Source: Blastopirellula marina DSM 3645 (GTDB taxonomy: Bacteria; Planctomycetota; Planctomycetia; Pirellulales; Pirellulaceae). Taken from it: a stretch of 64,000 nucleotides of DNA. Position numbers and translations under genes: made by a program. The DNA is taken from contig NZ_CH672376.1 in assembly GCF_000153105.1 (NCBI RefSeq), forward strand, positions 3,056,977 through 3,120,976, given 5' to 3'. Shown here one piece after another: positions 36,474 to 45,560 of the stretch; within the stretch, counting starts at the first letter, position 1, and each line of letters begins with the position of its first letter. A model generated the notes under the pieces. That model saw nothing but the letters and a program-made list of their open reading frames with translations. It was not told the DNA's origin and searched no databases.

Positions 36474-37748
36474 ATGTCGAACGGCGGTTGGCTTGACTTG
36501 AATTTGGTGGTTGAGCGCGTCGCGGATGTAGCGTCTCGGCAGCTTTGCATTCCGCGTGACGAAATTGACTCCACAAGTCGTCTGGTTGAAGACTTGCAAT
36601 GCGATAGTCTCGATTTAGTGGAATTGCTGATCGAATTGGAGGAGGAATTCCTGGTCACGATTCCGGATCGGCCCGAAAGTCCGGTTGGCAAGTCGATCTT
36701 TACGCGGCGGCCTTTTCGGATTTGCGATCTTGCCGAGTTGGTTTACTTGCAGCAAGGGACCGGCATGCCTGTTCGCCGTGGTTGGCGGCGGCAAATCATC
36801 GCCGACGAGACCAACGCAACGCCGTTCACTCAGCTCAGCGGGCGTTGTCGGGAGGATCTCTGCTCACCAAAAGTACCCCGCTTCGAGCCGCTTGGCTGCG
36901 TGCAGGGTATCCAGCAATACCGCCGCCGCAGCGATGGGATGCGTTGTGCCTGGATTCCGGCGGCGGAATTTACGATGGGCAGCGATGCCCTCGATGCGCA
37001 AACCGATGAACAACCGGTTCGTCAAGTTGCGTTGGATGCGTACCTGATCGATGCTGAGCCGGTGTCGACCACCGCGTATTGCCGGTTCTTGAATTCGGTC
37101 GTCGCGACTCCGGCAAACTTAGGCGATTGGTTTTTACTCGACCCGGCCGATGACCGCATCGCGCAGATGCCGATCCTGCAACGCGAAGTGGGTTGGAGCC
37201 CGGTCGCCGGAGCCGAGACCATGCCGATGGTGCTGGTCTCTTGGTATGGCGCCAACGCCTATTCCCTCTGGGCGAACGGATTCTCATTCGCCGATTATCG
37301 ATCGGAAGCCGGCTTTTTGCCTTCCGAAGCGCAATGGGAACATGCCGCCACCGGCGCCTATGCGACCGAAGATCCACCATCGCTCGACGCGTCGCTGGTC
37401 TATGGTCAGCACCACCGCGGCGCCGTGTATCACGCCGCCAACATGCCGATGGCTCCGGTCCACCTGTCGGCAGGAGTGTCAAAATTTGGCCTGCACCACA
37501 TGGCCGGAAATGTTTGGCAATGGTGCCGCGATTGGTACGCCGAAGACTTTTATGCGCGGGCAGAATCAGGCGCCGTGAATCCGGTCAACATGGTGGAGTC
37601 TGGCGTCCGCAGCGAACGAGGCGGAAGTTGGGTTGGCCCGCTCGATTTGTGTCGGACCTCGTATCGCCGCGGCCGTTCACCGGACGCGCGCGGGCGTTGT
37701 TTGGGATTTCGGTGCGTCAGCCCGGTTGCGCATCTTGCTTTGCATTAG
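36474..37748 (+). CDS. Acyl-carrier-like domain fused to an FGE-sulfatase (SUMF1-type) domain
   Basis: 424 residues. Residues 8-95 look like an acyl carrier protein: a first helix, then DSTSRLVEDLQCDSLDLVEL with the DSL phosphopantetheine Ser at about residue 44. Residues about 150-418 are an FGE/SUMF1-fold domain (IPAAEFTMGSDALDAQTDEQ, VDAYLIDAEPVSTTAYCRFL-like block, LPSEAQWEHAATGAY, GNVWQWCRDWYAEDF, SERGGSWVGPLDLCRTSYRR, CLGFRCV). In canonical FGE the strand after GGSW has two Cys; here the first position is Gly and only the second (DLCR) remains, so sulfatase activation is unlikely. The fusion may modify or recruit a carrier-bound substrate. Confidence 0.85.
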   Translation: MSNGGWLDLNLVVERVADVASRQLCIPRDEIDSTSRLVEDLQCDSLDLVELLIELEEEFLVTIPDRPESPVGKSIFTRRPFRICDLAELVYLQQGTGMPVRRGWRRQIIADETNATPFTQLSGRCREDLCSPKVPRFEPLGCVQGIQQYRRRSDGMRCAWIPAAEFTMGSDALDAQTDEQPVRQVALDAYLIDAEPVSTTAYCRFLNSVVATPANLGDWFLLDPADDRIAQMPILQREVGWSPVAGAETMPMVLVSWYGANAYSLWANGFSFADYRSEAGFLPSEAQWEHAATGAYATEDPPSLDASLVYGQHHRGAVYHAANMPMAPVHLSAGVSKFGLHHMAGNVWQWCRDWYAEDFYARAESGAVNPVNMVESGVRSERGGSWVGPLDLCRTSYRRGRSPDARGRCLGFRCVSPVAHLALH

Positions 37749-37765: not shown

Positions 37766-38437
37766 TTACGCACGTACCCACGGCATAAACGCGCGCAAAA
37801 ACTTCGCGCACTTCGGCGTTTGATCGGCGCCTGTTTTGTCGAGCGTGAACGTTTGGCCGATCACCACGTCCATCCAGTGCCAAGCGGTCGCCGTCCCATT
37901 TAGATTTCGCAGCGCGGCCATCAGTTCGTTGAGCGTCCCGCTTCGAGCGACTTCGATCAAGATGCCGTCGGATGCTTCGTACGCCGCCGGCTTCAACCGA
38001 GATCCATCGACATTCAGCACCACCGCGGCAGGCGATTGCCCGGGGATCGTCGCGGCGACATAGATCTGCAGATCCTTGTCAGTCGCTTCGCGGGCATCGG
38101 CGATCATTTCTTCCAGTTCGCTGCCGGTGAACGTCAAAAAGCTGTGCCAATACCAGCTGCTGTCCATGACGTTGCTGGCCTGCCAACTGCCGGGGTGCAG
38201 CAGACCCTTTTCGACATTCCAACCGCAGAACAGCTCGCCCGATTTAACCAGCACGTCGATCTGGGTCAGCATCAGTTTGCCATGCTGAAAAGCCGCTTTG
38301 GCGCCGGTCGGCGCTAACCACCAATGGGTCGAATCGGCGACGCGAAACCGATTGTAAGGCAACACATGCAGCCGCGGAAAATAGTGCTGCTTCAACTGCT
38401 TGGCGACTTCATGGGGCGAAGCGAAAGGGAGATTCAT
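37766..38437 (-). CDS. Conserved-looking hypothetical protein
   Basis: 223 residues, cytosolic. N-terminal LHVLPYNRFRVADSTHWWLA, a middle FCGWNVEKGLLHPGSWQASN and aromatic pair SSWYWHSFLTF, and a basic C-terminus. Strand-rich composition with many W and H residues suggests a compact single domain. I recognise no family. It converges on the ACP-FGE gene, ending 17 bp from its stop. Confidence 0.6.
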   Translation of the reverse strand: MNLPFASPHEVAKQLKQHYFPRLHVLPYNRFRVADSTHWWLAPTGAKAAFQHGKLMLTQIDVLVKSGELFCGWNVEKGLLHPGSWQASNVMDSSWYWHSFLTFTGSELEEMIADAREATDKDLQIYVAATIPGQSPAAVVLNVDGSRLKPAAYEASDGILIEVARSGTLNELMAALRNLNGTATAWHWMDVVIGQTFTLDKTGADQTPKCAKFLRAFMPWVRA

Positions 38438-39152: not shown

Positions 39153-40100
39153 ATGCCCAAACCGGCCCACTACCATCCCAATCTGATCTTCTCGCCCGGC
39201 ACGCAAGTCGTCACGCTGCGCGAAGTAGTGGGTCAGAACGGGCGCACGCTGCATCCGCGAGGCGCGGTGGGCGTGGTGGTCAAGTCGCCGGCCGATTTGC
39301 AGCAGAGCTATCGGATTCGGTTTCCGGATGGGTATGAAGAGTCGCTCGCGCCCAGTGAATTGGCGCTGTTGGCCAAGCACAAAGAAGGTGCGATCGGCGA
39401 GCGGAGCGCCGCCGAGCATGGTGATCTGCTGCAGCGAGTTTTGTTCCAGTGCATCGTCGGCTCCCAAGCGTTTGGGCTGGCCGATGAGGACTCGGACATT
39501 GATCGCCGCGGTTTTTATCTGCCGCCGGCCGAGCTGCATTGGTCGCTGTACGGCGTGCCGGAGCAGTTGGAATTAGACCAATCGCAAGAGGCGTATTGGG
39601 AGATTCAAAAGTTTGTCGTCCTCGCGCTGAAAGCGAACCCGAACGTGCTGGAGTGTCTCTATTCGCCGTTGGTCGAGAAGGCGACTCCTTTGGCGCAGCA
39701 GCTGTTGGCGATGCGATCGATCTTTCTGTCGCGGTTGGTTTATCAAACCTACAACGGTTACGCGATGTCGCAGTTCAAAAAGATGCAGACCGATCTGCGC
39801 ACCCAAGGTCAAGTGAAGTGGAAGCATGTAATGCACTTGATCCGCTTGCTAATCAGCGGAATTCGCGTCCTGCACGAAGGAGAAGTGCCGGTCGACGTGG
39901 GTCCGCATCGCGATCGACTGTTGGCGATCAAGCGAGGCGAAGTTGCGTGGGCCGAGACCGAGCAGTGGCGACGGCAACTGCATGCCGAGTTTGACGCGGC
40001 GCTGCAAACGACCGCGTTGCCGGATCGTCCGAATTATGAACAAGCGAACGGCTTTTTGATCCAAGCGCGGCGTGCTGCGCTCTCGGAAGAATTGCCATGA
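39153..40100 (+). CDS. Polymerase-beta-superfamily nucleotidyltransferase (first of a pair)
   Basis: 315 residues. Residues 10-75 form a beta-rich N-terminal domain (FSPGTQVVTLREVVGQNG). The catalytic NTase region starts with CIVGSQAFGLADEDSDIDRR, containing the GS and the DxD metal pair, then RGFYLPPAELHW and the third carboxylate region about YWEIQKFVVLALKANPNVLE. A C-terminal helical region follows (VYQTYNGYAMSQFKKM, HVMHLIRLLISGIRVLHEGE). Such stand-alone NTases act on nucleic-acid ends or tRNA-like substrates, often in RNA repair settings. Its last codon overlaps the next ATG. Confidence 0.85.
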   Translation: MPKPAHYHPNLIFSPGTQVVTLREVVGQNGRTLHPRGAVGVVVKSPADLQQSYRIRFPDGYEESLAPSELALLAKHKEGAIGERSAAEHGDLLQRVLFQCIVGSQAFGLADEDSDIDRRGFYLPPAELHWSLYGVPEQLELDQSQEAYWEIQKFVVLALKANPNVLECLYSPLVEKATPLAQQLLAMRSIFLSRLVYQTYNGYAMSQFKKMQTDLRTQGQVKWKHVMHLIRLLISGIRVLHEGEVPVDVGPHRDRLLAIKRGEVAWAETEQWRRQLHAEFDAALQTTALPDRPNYEQANGFLIQARRAALSEELP

Positions 40101-40858
40101 ACATCGATCCCCGCTTGCACCGCCAAGTAGAGCAACATCCCTATCCCCTGCTCTTCGCGACGATCAGCGGCGCGCACCTGTATGGATTTCCCTCGCCCGA
40201 CTCCGACTTTGATCTGCGCGGCGCCCACTTGTTGCCGCTGGCCGAGATTGTCGGCCTGCGTGAAGCGGAAGAAACGATCGAGAAGTCAGGCGTGCACGAT
40301 GGTCTCGAAATCGATCTGGTGACGCACGACGCCAAAAAGTTCTTCCTGCTAATGCTGAAGAAGAACGGTTACGTGTTGGAGCAATTGCTTTCGCCGCTGG
40401 TCGTGCAAATGTCTTTGGAGCATGAAGAGCTGAAGGCGCTCGCGCCGGCCTGCATCACGCGACATCACTCGCACCATTATCTCGGCTTCGCCGCGACGCA
40501 GTGGAAACTGTTTCAAAAAGAAGATCCGCCGCGGGTCAAACCGCTGCTCTATGTCTATCGCGTGCTGTTGACCGGAATCCATTTGATGCGGACTGGGCGA
40601 ATCGAAGCAAATTTGATCCATCTGAACGAAGAGTTTCGACTACCGTACGTGCCCGATTTGATTGCCCGCAAAGTGGAAGGGCCGGAGAAGGGAACGCTTC
40701 CTTCCACCGACGTGACGTTGCATTCAACCGAATACGAGCGTCTGCGGGCCGAGTTAACGCAGGCGCACGAGCAAAGTCGATTGCCGGAACAAGCGACGGC
40801 GGCGGCCGCATTGAACGATTTATTGGTGCGCGTGCGGTTGCAGACCGCCTCTGCGTAG
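40097..40858 (+). CDS. Polymerase-beta-superfamily nucleotidyltransferase (second of a pair)
   Basis: 253 residues; ATG overlaps the previous stop (ATGA), so both are made together. The NTase motif is FATISGAHLYGFPSPDSDFD (Gly-Ala instead of Gly-Ser, then DxD), the third acidic region is LEIDLVTHDAKKFF, and the helical tail (RVKPLLYVYRVLLTGIHLMR) parallels that of the first protein. The two look like diverged paralogues with a common helical C-terminal domain; this one lacks the beta-rich N-terminus. Confidence 0.85.
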   Translation: MNIDPRLHRQVEQHPYPLLFATISGAHLYGFPSPDSDFDLRGAHLLPLAEIVGLREAEETIEKSGVHDGLEIDLVTHDAKKFFLLMLKKNGYVLEQLLSPLVVQMSLEHEELKALAPACITRHHSHHYLGFAATQWKLFQKEDPPRVKPLLYVYRVLLTGIHLMRTGRIEANLIHLNEEFRLPYVPDLIARKVEGPEKGTLPSTDVTLHSTEYERLRAELTQAHEQSRLPEQATAAAALNDLLVRVRLQTASA

Positions 40859-40949: not shown

Positions 40950-43900
40950 TTAGCTGAACAACAGATCGTCGAGCGATTCGGAATCGGCGAAGAATTCTTC
41001 GACCGATTCGGAAGGCGAGACGACGATGTCGAACGTGTCGACATCGGTTCGCGGACTGCCGGTGCCGGTGGCTCCTCGATCATTGGAATTGATCGTGAAC
41101 GTGTCGGTGCCGGTGTAGCCGTCATTCGGCGTGTAGACTAGGCCGTTCAGTAGCGACGAAATCTGCTCGAACGATCCGACCAGCATGATCCGCGTTGCAT
41201 TGAGCGAAGCCAATTGCAGCGTGCCATGTTGGACCGAAATCGTCACTTGGACAAAGGCGCCGTTCGCGTCAGGGTCGCTGACAGAAATAGCGTTGCCAGT
41301 GGCTGAACCAAAGGCTAAAGATTGTCCCGCGGCAATCGTCTGCGTGCCGGGGACATGGTTCAAAGGGGGCAGGTTCGTCCCATTGTCGGTGTCCAAACCG
41401 TTGATGGTCAGCACCACCGTCGCGGTGTCTGATCCTCCATCGCTGTCACTGACAGTATAGGTAAAACTGTCGGTCGCTAGTTCCCCATTGGCCAGTTCGT
41501 CGTACATCCCATTGGGATCGTAGTCAAAACTGCCGTCCGCGTTAAGCGTCAGCAAAGCGCCCGACGCCAAGGTGATCGGCGTGCCGACATCGACCGCGAC
41601 ATCATTGACGGCGGTGATCGCCATCGCTTGTCCCTCGGTATCGACATCGTTGAACATCACGCCCACTGGTACGATCGACAAGGCGGTCGCTTCGTCGGTC
41701 GAGAATTCATCATCATTGGCCACCGGTGCGTCATTCACGCCGTTGATCACGATTGTCACCGTCGCATCGGCTGTCGTCCCGCTACCGTCATCGGCAGTGT
41801 AGCTGAACGAGTCGAGCGTCGACTCGCCGCCGGGAAGCGTTTCAAACGATCCGTTCGGGTCATAGTCGAAACTGCCGTCGGAGTTGACCGTCAGCAACGC
41901 GCCGGAGGCCAAAGTGACCTGCGATCCCACATTGACCGCTTCGCCGTTGACGGAAACGACCGTCGCGGCGCCGGTGTCATTGCCAAGCAAGCCTGGGGCT
42001 GAGATCGACAGCGAATTGTCCTCGTCGGTGACGTACTCATCATTTTCGACAATGAGATTGGTCACCCCTTGAATGGTGATCGCGACGGTCGAACTGCTCA
42101 TCAAACCGCTGCTGTCGGCCGCGGTATAGGTAAAGCTGTCTACCGCGGTTTCTCCATCGAGCAGGTCGTTGAAGGCGCCGTTGGGATCGTAGTCGAAACT
42201 GCCATCGGCGTTCAGCGTCAGCAGGGCGCCCGATTCGAGCGTGATCTGCATGCCGATATCGGCCGTTTCTCCATTAACATCGACGATCGTAAGCGCGTCA
42301 CCATCGGCATCGGTGTCATTTTCCAACACGCCGGGCGCCGAGATGTTGAGCGCGGTGTCTTCCGCGGTCTCATAGGCATCGTCAATGCTGACCGGAGCGT
42401 TATTGACGCCTGCAATCGTAATCACGACGGTGGAAGTGCTCATCAATCCGCTGCTGTCGGCGGCAGTATAGGTGAAGCTTTCTTCCGCGGTTTCTCCTTC
42501 GGCCAAAGCTGCGAACACGCCGTTCGGGTCGTAGTCAAAACTGCCATCGGCGTTCAGCGTGAGCAATGCGCCCGATTCGAGCGTGATCTGCATGCCGACA
42601 CTGGTCGGTTCGCCGTTCACATCGACGATCGTAAGCGCGTCACCATCGGCATCGGTGTCATTTTCGAGCACGCCGGGCGTCGAGATGTTGAGCGCGGTAT
42701 CTTCCGCCGTTTCATAAGCGTCATCACTGCTGACCGGTGCGTTGTTGACGCCGGCGATGGTGATGACCACGGTCGACGTGCTCATCAATCCGCTGCTGTC
42801 GGCGGCGGTATAGGTGAAGCTTTCTTCCGCGGTTTCTCCTTCGGCCAAAGCGGCGAACACGCCGTTCGGGTCGTAGTCAAAACTTCCATCGGCGTTTAGC
42901 GTCAGCAATGCGCCCGATTCGAGGGTGATCTGCGTGCCGACATTCGTCGGTTCGCCGTTCACATCGAGGACGGATAACGCATCGCCATCGGCGTCGGTGT
43001 CATTCTCTAACAAGCCGGGCGTTGCGATGTTAAGCGCGGTATCTTCCGCGGTCTCATAAGCATCGTCGGTGCTGACCGGGGCATGGTCGACACCGGCGAT
43101 CGTGATGGTAACCGTGGAGGTACTCATCAAACCGCTGCTATCCGTCGCGGTATAGGTGAAGCTCTCTTCCGCGGTCTCTCCTTCGGCCAAAGCGGCGAAT
43201 GCGCCATTGGGATCATAATCAAAACTGCCGTCGGCGTTCAGCGTCAGCAACGCACCCGATTCGAGCGCGATCTGCATCCCTAAGTCGGCCGGTTCACCGT
43301 TGATGTCCACCACGGTCAGACTATCGCCATCCGAGTCGATATCGTTATCCAGAACCCCGGGAGCAGCGATATTGAGAATCGCATCTTCCGCGGTCTCATA
43401 AGCGTCATCACTACTGACCGGAGCGCTGTTGACCCCAGCGATGGAAATCACGACGGTGGAAGTGCTCACCAACCCGCTGCTGTCGGCGGCGGTGTAGGTG
43501 AAGCTTTCTTCTGCGGTCTCTCCCTCGGCCAAAGCGGCGAATGCGCCGTTCGGGTCGTAGTCAAAACTGCCATCGGCGTTCAGCGTCAGCAATGCGCCCG
43601 ATTCGAGGGTGATCTGCGTGCCGACATTCGTCGGTTCGCCGTTCACATCGAGGACGGTTAACGCGTCACCATCGGCGTCGGTGTCATTTTCGAGCACGCC
43701 GGGCGTCGAGATGTTGAGCGCGGTATCTTCCGCCGTTTCATAAGCGTCATCACTGCTGACCGGTGCGTTGTTGACGCCGGCGATGGTGATGACCACGGTC
43801 GACGTGCTCATCAATCCGCTGCTGTCGGCGGCGGTGTAGGTGAAGCTTTCTTCCGCGGTTTCTCCTTCGGCCAAAGCTGCGAAGGCGCCGTTCGGGTCGT

Positions 43901-45560
43901 AGTCGAAACTGCCGTCCGCATTCAGCGTGAGCAACGCGCCCGATTCGAGCGCGATCTGTGTGCCGACACTGGCCGGTTCACCGTTGATGTCCACGACGCT
44001 TAACGCATCGCCATCCGTGTCTGCATCGTTCTCCAGAACGCCCGGCGCCGAGATGTTGAGCGCGGTGTCTTCGGCCGTTTCATAAGCGTCATCACTGCTG
44101 ACCGGTGCGTTGTTGACGCCGGCGATGGTGATGACCACGGTCGACGTGCTGACTTGGCCGGTGCTGTCGGCGACGGTATAGGTGAAGCTTTCTTCCGCAG
44201 ACTCTCCTTCGGTCAAAGCGGCGAATTCGCCGTTGGGATCATAATCAAAGCTGCCGTCTGCGTTCAGTGTCAGCAGTGCGCCGGAGTCGAGGGTGATTTG
44301 CGATCCCACGCTTGCCGACTCGCCGTTGACTTCGACCACGTTGAGCGCGTCTCCATCGGCGTCGGCGTCATTTTCGAGCACGCCTGGCGCCGCGATGTTC
44401 AGTGCGGCGTCTTCCGCGGTTTCATAGGCGTCGTCTAGCGAAACGGGCGCTTCGTTCGCCATGACTTCGACAAAGAACGATTCGACGTCGGCCAGTCCGG
44501 CGTTGTCGAACACCAGGATCGAAATCTCAAACATGCCCGGCGGAACGTCCAGCCCCGGCGTCAGCAGCAATTGGGCGGTTCGCGTTCCGACCTCTTGAAT
44601 CAGCGAGACGAAGGAGGGGGATTCGGGATCGATCATAAACGAGAGTTCGTCGGCCGCGTTCGGATCGGTGGCCGAGATCTCGAACATCAATTCTTGGCCA
44701 GCGTCCACTTCCTGATCGGCGATCGACGTCAGGTTGGGGGGGAGATTGACATTCACCGTGCTGGTCGCAACGGCGCTGTCCGCAACGCCGTCATTGACGC
44801 TGAACTCAATCACGCGCGGCGTCGCATCGGCCGCGGCGTTCGAATTGCTGTAACGCACCGAGCGCAACACCTGTTGGTACTCGGCGATCGTCGCTTCCCC
44901 GGTCAGTTGCAACTCGCCGCCAGCATACTCGGCGGTGATGCTGGTCCCTTCCGTGTTGACGGACAACATCTCGGCGTCGCCATCGGCCAAATTGGTGATG
45001 GTCACCGTGGCCGACATCAGGGTTTCATTGTTCGGATCGGAGACGGTCATATCGCTATCGGCGACGACGACTGGCCCTTGGCCAAACTGATAAGTCGTTT
45101 CGAAATCGACCCCTTCCCCGTCTTCACCGTTCAGATCGACATTCGGCTCGCCCAGCGAGACTTCGATCGTGATCGACTCAAAGTCTCCTTTTTGCGGCGA
45201 ATCTTGGTTCATCGCGATGACGCGGAACGTGTGCGATCCGACCTGATCCATCGACGGAGTCCAATGGATTACCCCATCCTGAGAAATCGTTGCGCCCGAG
45301 GGGGTTTGATCGGGATCTGGATCGAGCACAAAGGTGAATTCACCCTCGGTGATTGTACCTCCGGCGGCGAGCAGGTCGAGCGAGTATTGGTCGCCGACAT
45401 AGGCCGTTTCGGCGTCGACGCCAGACAGGTCGAAGTTCGGCGCGGATGCATCCATCACGCGGCGCTCTTCCAGGCGTTCGGATCCCATACTAAAAGCGTT
45501 GCGACGTGTGCGAGATTTATTCTTCATCGTCATATCGAATCCTTCAAAGAGATATGGCAA
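40950..45560 (-). CDS. Giant secreted surface protein with cadherin-like/VCBS-type tandem repeats
   Basis: 1536 residues (1527 from the MTMKNKS start). The N-terminus is basic, then has the planctomycete surface-protein signature ERLEERRVMDAS near residue 30-40. Residues about 40-370 hold Ig/cadherin-like domains (VDAETAYVGDQYSLDLLAAG, VNLPPNLTSIADQEVDAGQE). Then come nine about 114-residue repeats starting DDAYETAED, with GVLENDTDADGD calcium-type motifs and SFDYDPNG; the first seven are nearly identical. A final Ig-like part and an acidic tail (EEFFADSESLDDLLFS) end it. Likely a calcium-bound extracellular fibre or adhesin. Confidence 0.93.
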   Translation of the reverse strand: MPYLFEGFDMTMKNKSRTRRNAFSMGSERLEERRVMDASAPNFDLSGVDAETAYVGDQYSLDLLAAGGTITEGEFTFVLDPDPDQTPSGATISQDGVIHWTPSMDQVGSHTFRVIAMNQDSPQKGDFESITIEVSLGEPNVDLNGEDGEGVDFETTYQFGQGPVVVADSDMTVSDPNNETLMSATVTITNLADGDAEMLSVNTEGTSITAEYAGGELQLTGEATIAEYQQVLRSVRYSNSNAAADATPRVIEFSVNDGVADSAVATSTVNVNLPPNLTSIADQEVDAGQELMFEISATDPNAADELSFMIDPESPSFVSLIQEVGTRTAQLLLTPGLDVPPGMFEISILVFDNAGLADVESFFVEVMANEAPVSLDDAYETAEDAALNIAAPGVLENDADADGDALNVVEVNGESASVGSQITLDSGALLTLNADGSFDYDPNGEFAALTEGESAEESFTYTVADSTGQVSTSTVVITIAGVNNAPVSSDDAYETAEDTALNISAPGVLENDADTDGDALSVVDINGEPASVGTQIALESGALLTLNADGSFDYDPNGAFAALAEGETAEESFTYTAADSSGLMSTSTVVITIAGVNNAPVSSDDAYETAEDTALNISTPGVLENDTDADGDALTVLDVNGEPTNVGTQITLESGALLTLNADGSFDYDPNGAFAALAEGETAEESFTYTAADSSGLVSTSTVVISIAGVNSAPVSSDDAYETAEDAILNIAAPGVLDNDIDSDGDSLTVVDINGEPADLGMQIALESGALLTLNADGSFDYDPNGAFAALAEGETAEESFTYTATDSSGLMSTSTVTITIAGVDHAPVSTDDAYETAEDTALNIATPGLLENDTDADGDALSVLDVNGEPTNVGTQITLESGALLTLNADGSFDYDPNGVFAALAEGETAEESFTYTAADSSGLMSTSTVVITIAGVNNAPVSSDDAYETAEDTALNISTPGVLENDTDADGDALTIVDVNGEPTSVGMQITLESGALLTLNADGSFDYDPNGVFAALAEGETAEESFTYTAADSSGLMSTSTVVITIAGVNNAPVSIDDAYETAEDTALNISAPGVLENDTDADGDALTIVDVNGETADIGMQITLESGALLTLNADGSFDYDPNGAFNDLLDGETAVDSFTYTAADSSGLMSSSTVAITIQGVTNLIVENDEYVTDEDNSLSISAPGLLGNDTGAATVVSVNGEAVNVGSQVTLASGALLTVNSDGSFDYDPNGSFETLPGGESTLDSFSYTADDGSGTTADATVTIVINGVNDAPVANDDEFSTDEATALSIVPVGVMFNDVDTEGQAMAITAVNDVAVDVGTPITLASGALLTLNADGSFDYDPNGMYDELANGELATDSFTYTVSDSDGGSDTATVVLTINGLDTDNGTNLPPLNHVPGTQTIAAGQSLAFGSATGNAISVSDPDANGAFVQVTISVQHGTLQLASLNATRIMLVGSFEQISSLLNGLVYTPNDGYTGTDTFTINSNDRGATGTGSPRTDVDTFDIVVSPSESVEEFFADSESLDDLLFS
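42065..44440 (-). repeat. 342-bp tandem repeats inside the surface-protein gene
   Basis: Seven in-frame units with a constant about 342-bp period (for example the DDAYETAED codons recur near 42370, 42710, 43050, 43395, 43740, 44080 and 44425). Near-identical DNA implies recent expansion or gene conversion; two diverged units lie at 41500-42065. Confidence 0.85.

Follow-up and report, generated by a model that had tools for sequence, protein, structure and literature searches.

What is the function of a protein that joins an acyl carrier to a fold of the formylglycine-generating enzyme (FGE) type, in which the first of the two copper-binding cysteines is replaced by glycine? The gene lies in a stretch of 64,000 nucleotides of Blastopirellula marina DSM 3645, here called the window, and the features discussed below are compiled in Table 1. 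We interpret its product as a holo-carrier/FGE-fold accessory of RNA repair, which is not a copper FGE and the chemistry of which we infer; the probability of this reading is in our estimate slightly above one half, roughly 55%.

Table 1. Positions of the fusion gene, its domains and key codons, and the RlaP genes in the window.
Feature	Position	Strand	Remarks
ACP-FGE fusion gene	36474..37748	+	ATG start, 424 aa
Acyl-carrier domain, AcpP-like, four helices	36474..36758	+	aa 1-95; PF00550 27.6 bits; model helices
Ser45 codon, predicted phosphopantetheine site	36606..36608	+	invariant 35/35
Linker, partly disordered	36759..36890	+	aa 96-139; F118, L121, G123 invariant
FGE-fold (PF03781) domain	36891..37721	+	aa 140-416; profile match and model
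Gly388 codon, at FGE first copper Cys position	37635..37637	+	
Cys393 codon, at FGE second copper Cys position	37650..37652	+	Cys in 31/35
RlaP nucleotidyltransferase 1 (RNA ligase-associated Pol-beta family)	39153..40100	+	315 aa; PF10127 154.5 bits
RlaP nucleotidyltransferase 2	40097..40858	+	253 aa; PF10127 178.6 bits; 4-base overlap with the first

The sequence-only reading had described the protein as an ACP with a DSL attachment site joined to an FGE fold, and this description is borne out by profile matches above the cut-offs for both domains (PF00550, aa 14-65, 27.6 bits against 20.8; PF03781, aa 160-415, 127 bits against 23.3) as well as by the AlphaFold2 model (mean pLDDT 87.9), in which a complete four-helix carrier and an FGE-type fold are present. 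The former match, with the Ser of its D-S-L motif, places the protein among the phosphopantetheine carriers, the latter in the FGE-sulfatase superfamily. The carrier helices span residues 9-24, 45-59 (helix II, which starts at Ser45), 70-76 and 83-92, and residues 102-117 of the linker are disordered in the model. Scores for narrower groups remain below the respective cut-offs: 50 bits against 70.45 for the AcpP equivalog TIGR00517, 74.3 against 360 for the EgtB equivalog TIGR03440 and 44.7 against 500 for the PvdO equivalog NF051459 (the latter two from NCBIfam). None of the PADLOC models searched matched the fusion.

The four-helix fold, the D-S-L motif at helix II and the acidic recognition residues are shared with AcpP of type II fatty acid synthesis, from which the carrier differs in being fused, in falling below the AcpP equivalog cut-off and in an extra conserved segment (F76, R78) after helix II. 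Because the carrier is AcpP-like with a D-S-L motif and ACPS enzymes are encoded in the genome (three ACPS-family matches), Ser45 is probably phosphopantetheinylated, and it is probably a host AcpS-type transferase that would attach the arm.

The fusion is not an isolated case. Full-length relatives with 47-77% identity, each covering both domains, occur in 29 of 397 genomes of the same class, and further members were found on named contigs of a Phycisphaerales MAG (50%), a verrucomicrobial MAG (45%) and three alphaproteobacterial contigs (43-44%). The survey of fusion conservation that the sequence-only reading had proposed comprises an alignment of 35 full-length members, all of which keep both domains together; D40, L41, L46 and E56 are invariant along with Ser45, and the D-S-L of helix II is fully or almost fully conserved. 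Since all 35 members keep both domains and the predicted phosphopantetheine serine, the fusion is no product of chance. In the comparison with the sister species, dN/dS amounts to approximately 0.18 in the ACP, 0.16 in the FGE domain and 0.46 in the linker, and both the carrier and the FGE domain are under purifying selection. The carrier-FGE fusion is a distinct, conserved two-domain family. In the viral contigs and plasmids searched for the whole fusion, only the FGE domain was matched. The copy at L145 (genome G259, family f96) groups with those of the genus in family f1 to which the window belongs (support 97/93). This grouping suggests that the fusion has passed from one family to another, and its presence on alphaproteobacterial and verrucomicrobial contigs likewise suggests transfer.

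The copper site of FGE corresponds to the motif GGSW-V-G388-P-L-D-L-C393, in which G388 aligns to C336 and C393 to C341 of human FGE, as the sequence-only reading had stated for the glycine. Position 388 holds Gly in 32 and Ser in 3 family members, so that a restored cysteine pair, sought in the close homologues, is found in none (first-position Cys 0/35); the second cysteine is likewise missing in four of the 35. With the first copper Cys absent and the pair not restored in close homologues, the family does not possess the Cys pair that defines SUMF1 proper, and the protein is not a canonical copper FGE. That the fusion might nevertheless be a genuine copper FGE, with an added carrier, that generates formylglycine in sulfatases is suggested by FGEs being its best fold and sequence matches and by the wealth of sulfatases in planctomycetes. 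Given the missing cysteines, and sulfatases making up two of the 87 neighbours scanned, with none of them a common neighbour, we regard this explanation as hardly credible. The loss of the cysteine itself, which had been taken as a special sign, does not carry that meaning: among the other FGE-fold relatives covering both positions only 15 of 105 possess both copper cysteines, and because the pair is so rare its absence alone is unremarkable. More telling, judging from the alignments, are the residues characteristic of this family. E195, H313, H342, E381, R401, R408 and C409 are invariant in the FGE-fold domain, and these together with C158 are fixed or almost fixed in the family and rare in other FGE-fold sequences.

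Comparison of the model with PDB folds, which included the FGE, EgtB and PvdO structures called for by the sequence-only reading, yields matches to T. curvata FGE (Z 27.3, rmsd 2.8, 240 residues), PvdO (Z 26.7, rmsd 3.2, 243 residues), TvpA (Z 24.6, rmsd 2.7, 227 residues), PorK/GldK (Z 24.6, rmsd 3.4, 246 residues) and EgtB (Z 22.4, rmsd 3.1, 235 residues). The fusion shares the fold and the PF03781 core motifs with FGE/SUMF1, but is distinguished by the lack of the copper Cys pair, the presence of a carrier, other invariant residues and an RNA-repair neighbourhood. PvdO, which works in a carrier-based siderophore pathway, has the same fold but no fused carrier and a siderophore setting, and the fusion scores far below its NCBIfam cut-off. 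The sulfoxide and selenoxide synthases EgtB, OvoA and SenA also carry the FGE-fold domain at the C-terminus; their N-terminal part, however, is DinB-like, with four helices and ligands for iron, whereas that of the fusion is an acyl carrier.

Non-catalytic ligand-binding modules of the FGE fold are known as well, among them TvpA, GldK and the DGR variable proteins. It is conceivable, though less likely than not, that the FGE fold of the fusion is such a module and that the carrier reports the metabolic state or docks partners, the whole acting as a scaffold or sensor that assembles a repair complex and performs no chemistry itself. The non-enzymes TvpA and PorK/GldK among the close fold matches and the missing copper site agree with this, and the FGE-fold domains of conflict systems have been described as modules for binding (PMC7159879). 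The invariant, family-specific polar residues E195, H313, H342, E381, R401 and C409, by contrast, suit an active site, although they would suit a binding site equally.

Indications of the biological setting come from the neighbouring genes. In the window, two RlaP genes follow 1.4 kb downstream of the fusion, and because two minus-strand ORFs separate them from it, this is a case of proximity and not of an operon. Locally built profiles, run against the entire window in search of more repair genes, recovered the two RlaP genes only. One of the intervening ORFs (37766-38437, minus strand, 223 aa) has no Pfam or NCBIfam match, and beyond the RlaP pair a minus-strand gene (40950-45560) encodes a protein of 1536 aa, most of which is a tandem array of similar units, each some 100 aa long and by eye cadherin/VCBS-like. 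The genome of the window possesses RtcB and lacks Pnkp and an ATP-dependent RNA ligase. Its sister G223 is without Pnkp, RlaP and ATP-dependent RNA ligase, yet keeps the fusion, and co-occurrence of the fusion with Pnkp or RlaP is consequently not obligate. Within the window's genus, the sister species G121 and G258 (loci L184 and L185) display a Pnkp/Hen1/RlaP cassette that includes an NLI-interacting-factor-like phosphatase, and no fusion; in the species of the window the RlaP pair and the fusion are present and Pnkp is missing.

About 9 kb on each side of the relatives were inspected, and in several of them the association is closer. The fusion is located inside Hen1/RNA-ligase/Pnkp/RlaP operons in three genera. 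In G476 (L151) a single strand encodes Thg1, RNA ligase, HD/AAA kinase, Hen1, RlaP, R2K ATP-grasp, RlaP, ACP-FGE and Pnkp, in this order; the fusion gene shares 10 bases with Pnkp and is 26 bases from RlaP, and Pnkp and Hen1 exceed their NCBIfam cut-offs. The order is Hen1, HEAT protein, ACP-FGE, RNA ligase, HD/AAA, Pnkp in G286 (L149), and Hen1, HEAT, ACP-FGE, Pnkp in G206 (L167). The HEAT-repeat protein, a typical scaffold, which adjoins the fusion in two genera, is a further point for a scaffolding role. In most members of one genus of family f3 the fusion is followed, at a distance of a few kb downstream, by RNA ligase, HD/AAA, Hen1, Pnkp, RlaP and RlaP; in the same genus it lies farther from the repair operon in G048 and is unlinked in G069, where both Pnkp and RlaP are absent. 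At L163:10469-16352 and related f3 loci, the interval from the fusion to the repair operon repeatedly contains PcfJ-like genes, Thg1 and an NLI-interacting-factor-like phosphatase. In G282 a DRB0094-type RNA ligase is found at about 3 kb and RlaP at about 14 kb from the fusion. The fusion is hence encoded with Pnkp/Hen1/RlaP in several lineages, as a component of the cassette would be, and the cassette is built of the same enzymes as the Pnkp-Hen1 and Pnkp1-Rnl-Hen1 systems with RlaP (PMC4411300, PMC7824862).

The association was compared with chance expectation. Among the 397 genomes of the class, Pnkp is present in 20 of 29 fusion carriers and in 88 of 368 non-carriers (Fisher p 1e-6), and RlaP in 23 of 29 and 141 of 368, respectively (Fisher p 2e-5), in tests that ignore phylogeny. 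Linkage within 25 kb is observed in six of 16 carrier genera (p ~6e-8 under uniform placement and with island structure ignored). All these p values are indicative only. Two further points strengthen the case for a true link. The linked members are dispersed on the family tree, with seven changes of state, and differ in gene order. Moreover, the seven linked genomes that were examined contain no other FGE-fold gene at a distance of 25 kb or less from Pnkp or RlaP.

Nevertheless, the fusion is unlinked to repair genes in about half of its carriers, and we have to consider that it may be a tailoring enzyme in the manner of PvdO or EgtB, which acts on a carrier-bound substrate in a dispersed small-molecule or lipid pathway and owes its closeness to repair genes to common variable islands. 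PvdO ranks among the best fold matches, several members stand alone among unrelated neighbours, and the fusion persists in G223. However, a scan of the neighbours of unlinked copies, incomplete and with poor ORF calls in some high-GC loci, revealed no common family, and among the 25 commonest neighbour families listed (some high-GC loci being poorly called) no PKS, NRPS or FAS genes appear near these copies. The biosynthetic setting suspected in the sequence-only reading thereby finds no support. In addition, the fusion occurs within repair operons of separate lineages with differing gene orders, while the remaining FGE genes of the same genomes are away from repair genes. On balance we consider a tailoring function distinctly unlikely.

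We know of no role of carrier proteins in RNA repair. Neither carrier/FGE fusions, nor an FGE in RNA repair, nor a carrier-FGE protein as a described component of RNA-repair systems was found in the literature searched, which did not include the principal survey of these systems by Burroughs and Aravind (2016); the recurrent link of the carrier-FGE gene to RNA-repair genes is unreported in that literature. A named, conserved family with an odd domain pair thereby gains a concrete setting, RNA repair.

As an accessory of RNA repair, the fusion would assist in the repair of RNA, most likely of broken tRNA. Its arm might in turn carry a thiol-bound group and offer it to the pocket of the FGE fold or to a partner in repair, a step that we infer more weakly. 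In its full form, namely that the FGE fold is an enzyme which converts or hands on a group attached to its own phosphopantetheine arm and so modifies or protects broken tRNA during Pnkp/Hen1/RlaP repair, this proposal is rather unlikely. If true, carrier-protein chemistry would be seen in RNA repair for the first time, as a new kind of step in mending RNA that has been damaged in conflicts among bacteria, phages and toxins; if not, the family would still provide a widespread repair cassette with a scaffold or accessory.

A candidate for loading the arm, or for transfer from it, is the R2K ATP-grasp enzyme, the gene of which is situated beside the fusion in two genera. For R2K enzymes an activity as amide-forming ligases has been predicted (PMC4431377). 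In G479 (L170) the fusion is preceded by EF-Tu, R2K and Macro genes, with two RlaP genes farther upstream; the Macro gene overlaps the R2K gene, and the fusion starts 21 bases after Macro. At L170:6469-9109 the EF-Tu gene, which directly precedes R2K and the DarG-like Macro gene, is complete, scores above the NCBIfam cut-offs and is possibly a copy linked to repair or immunity.
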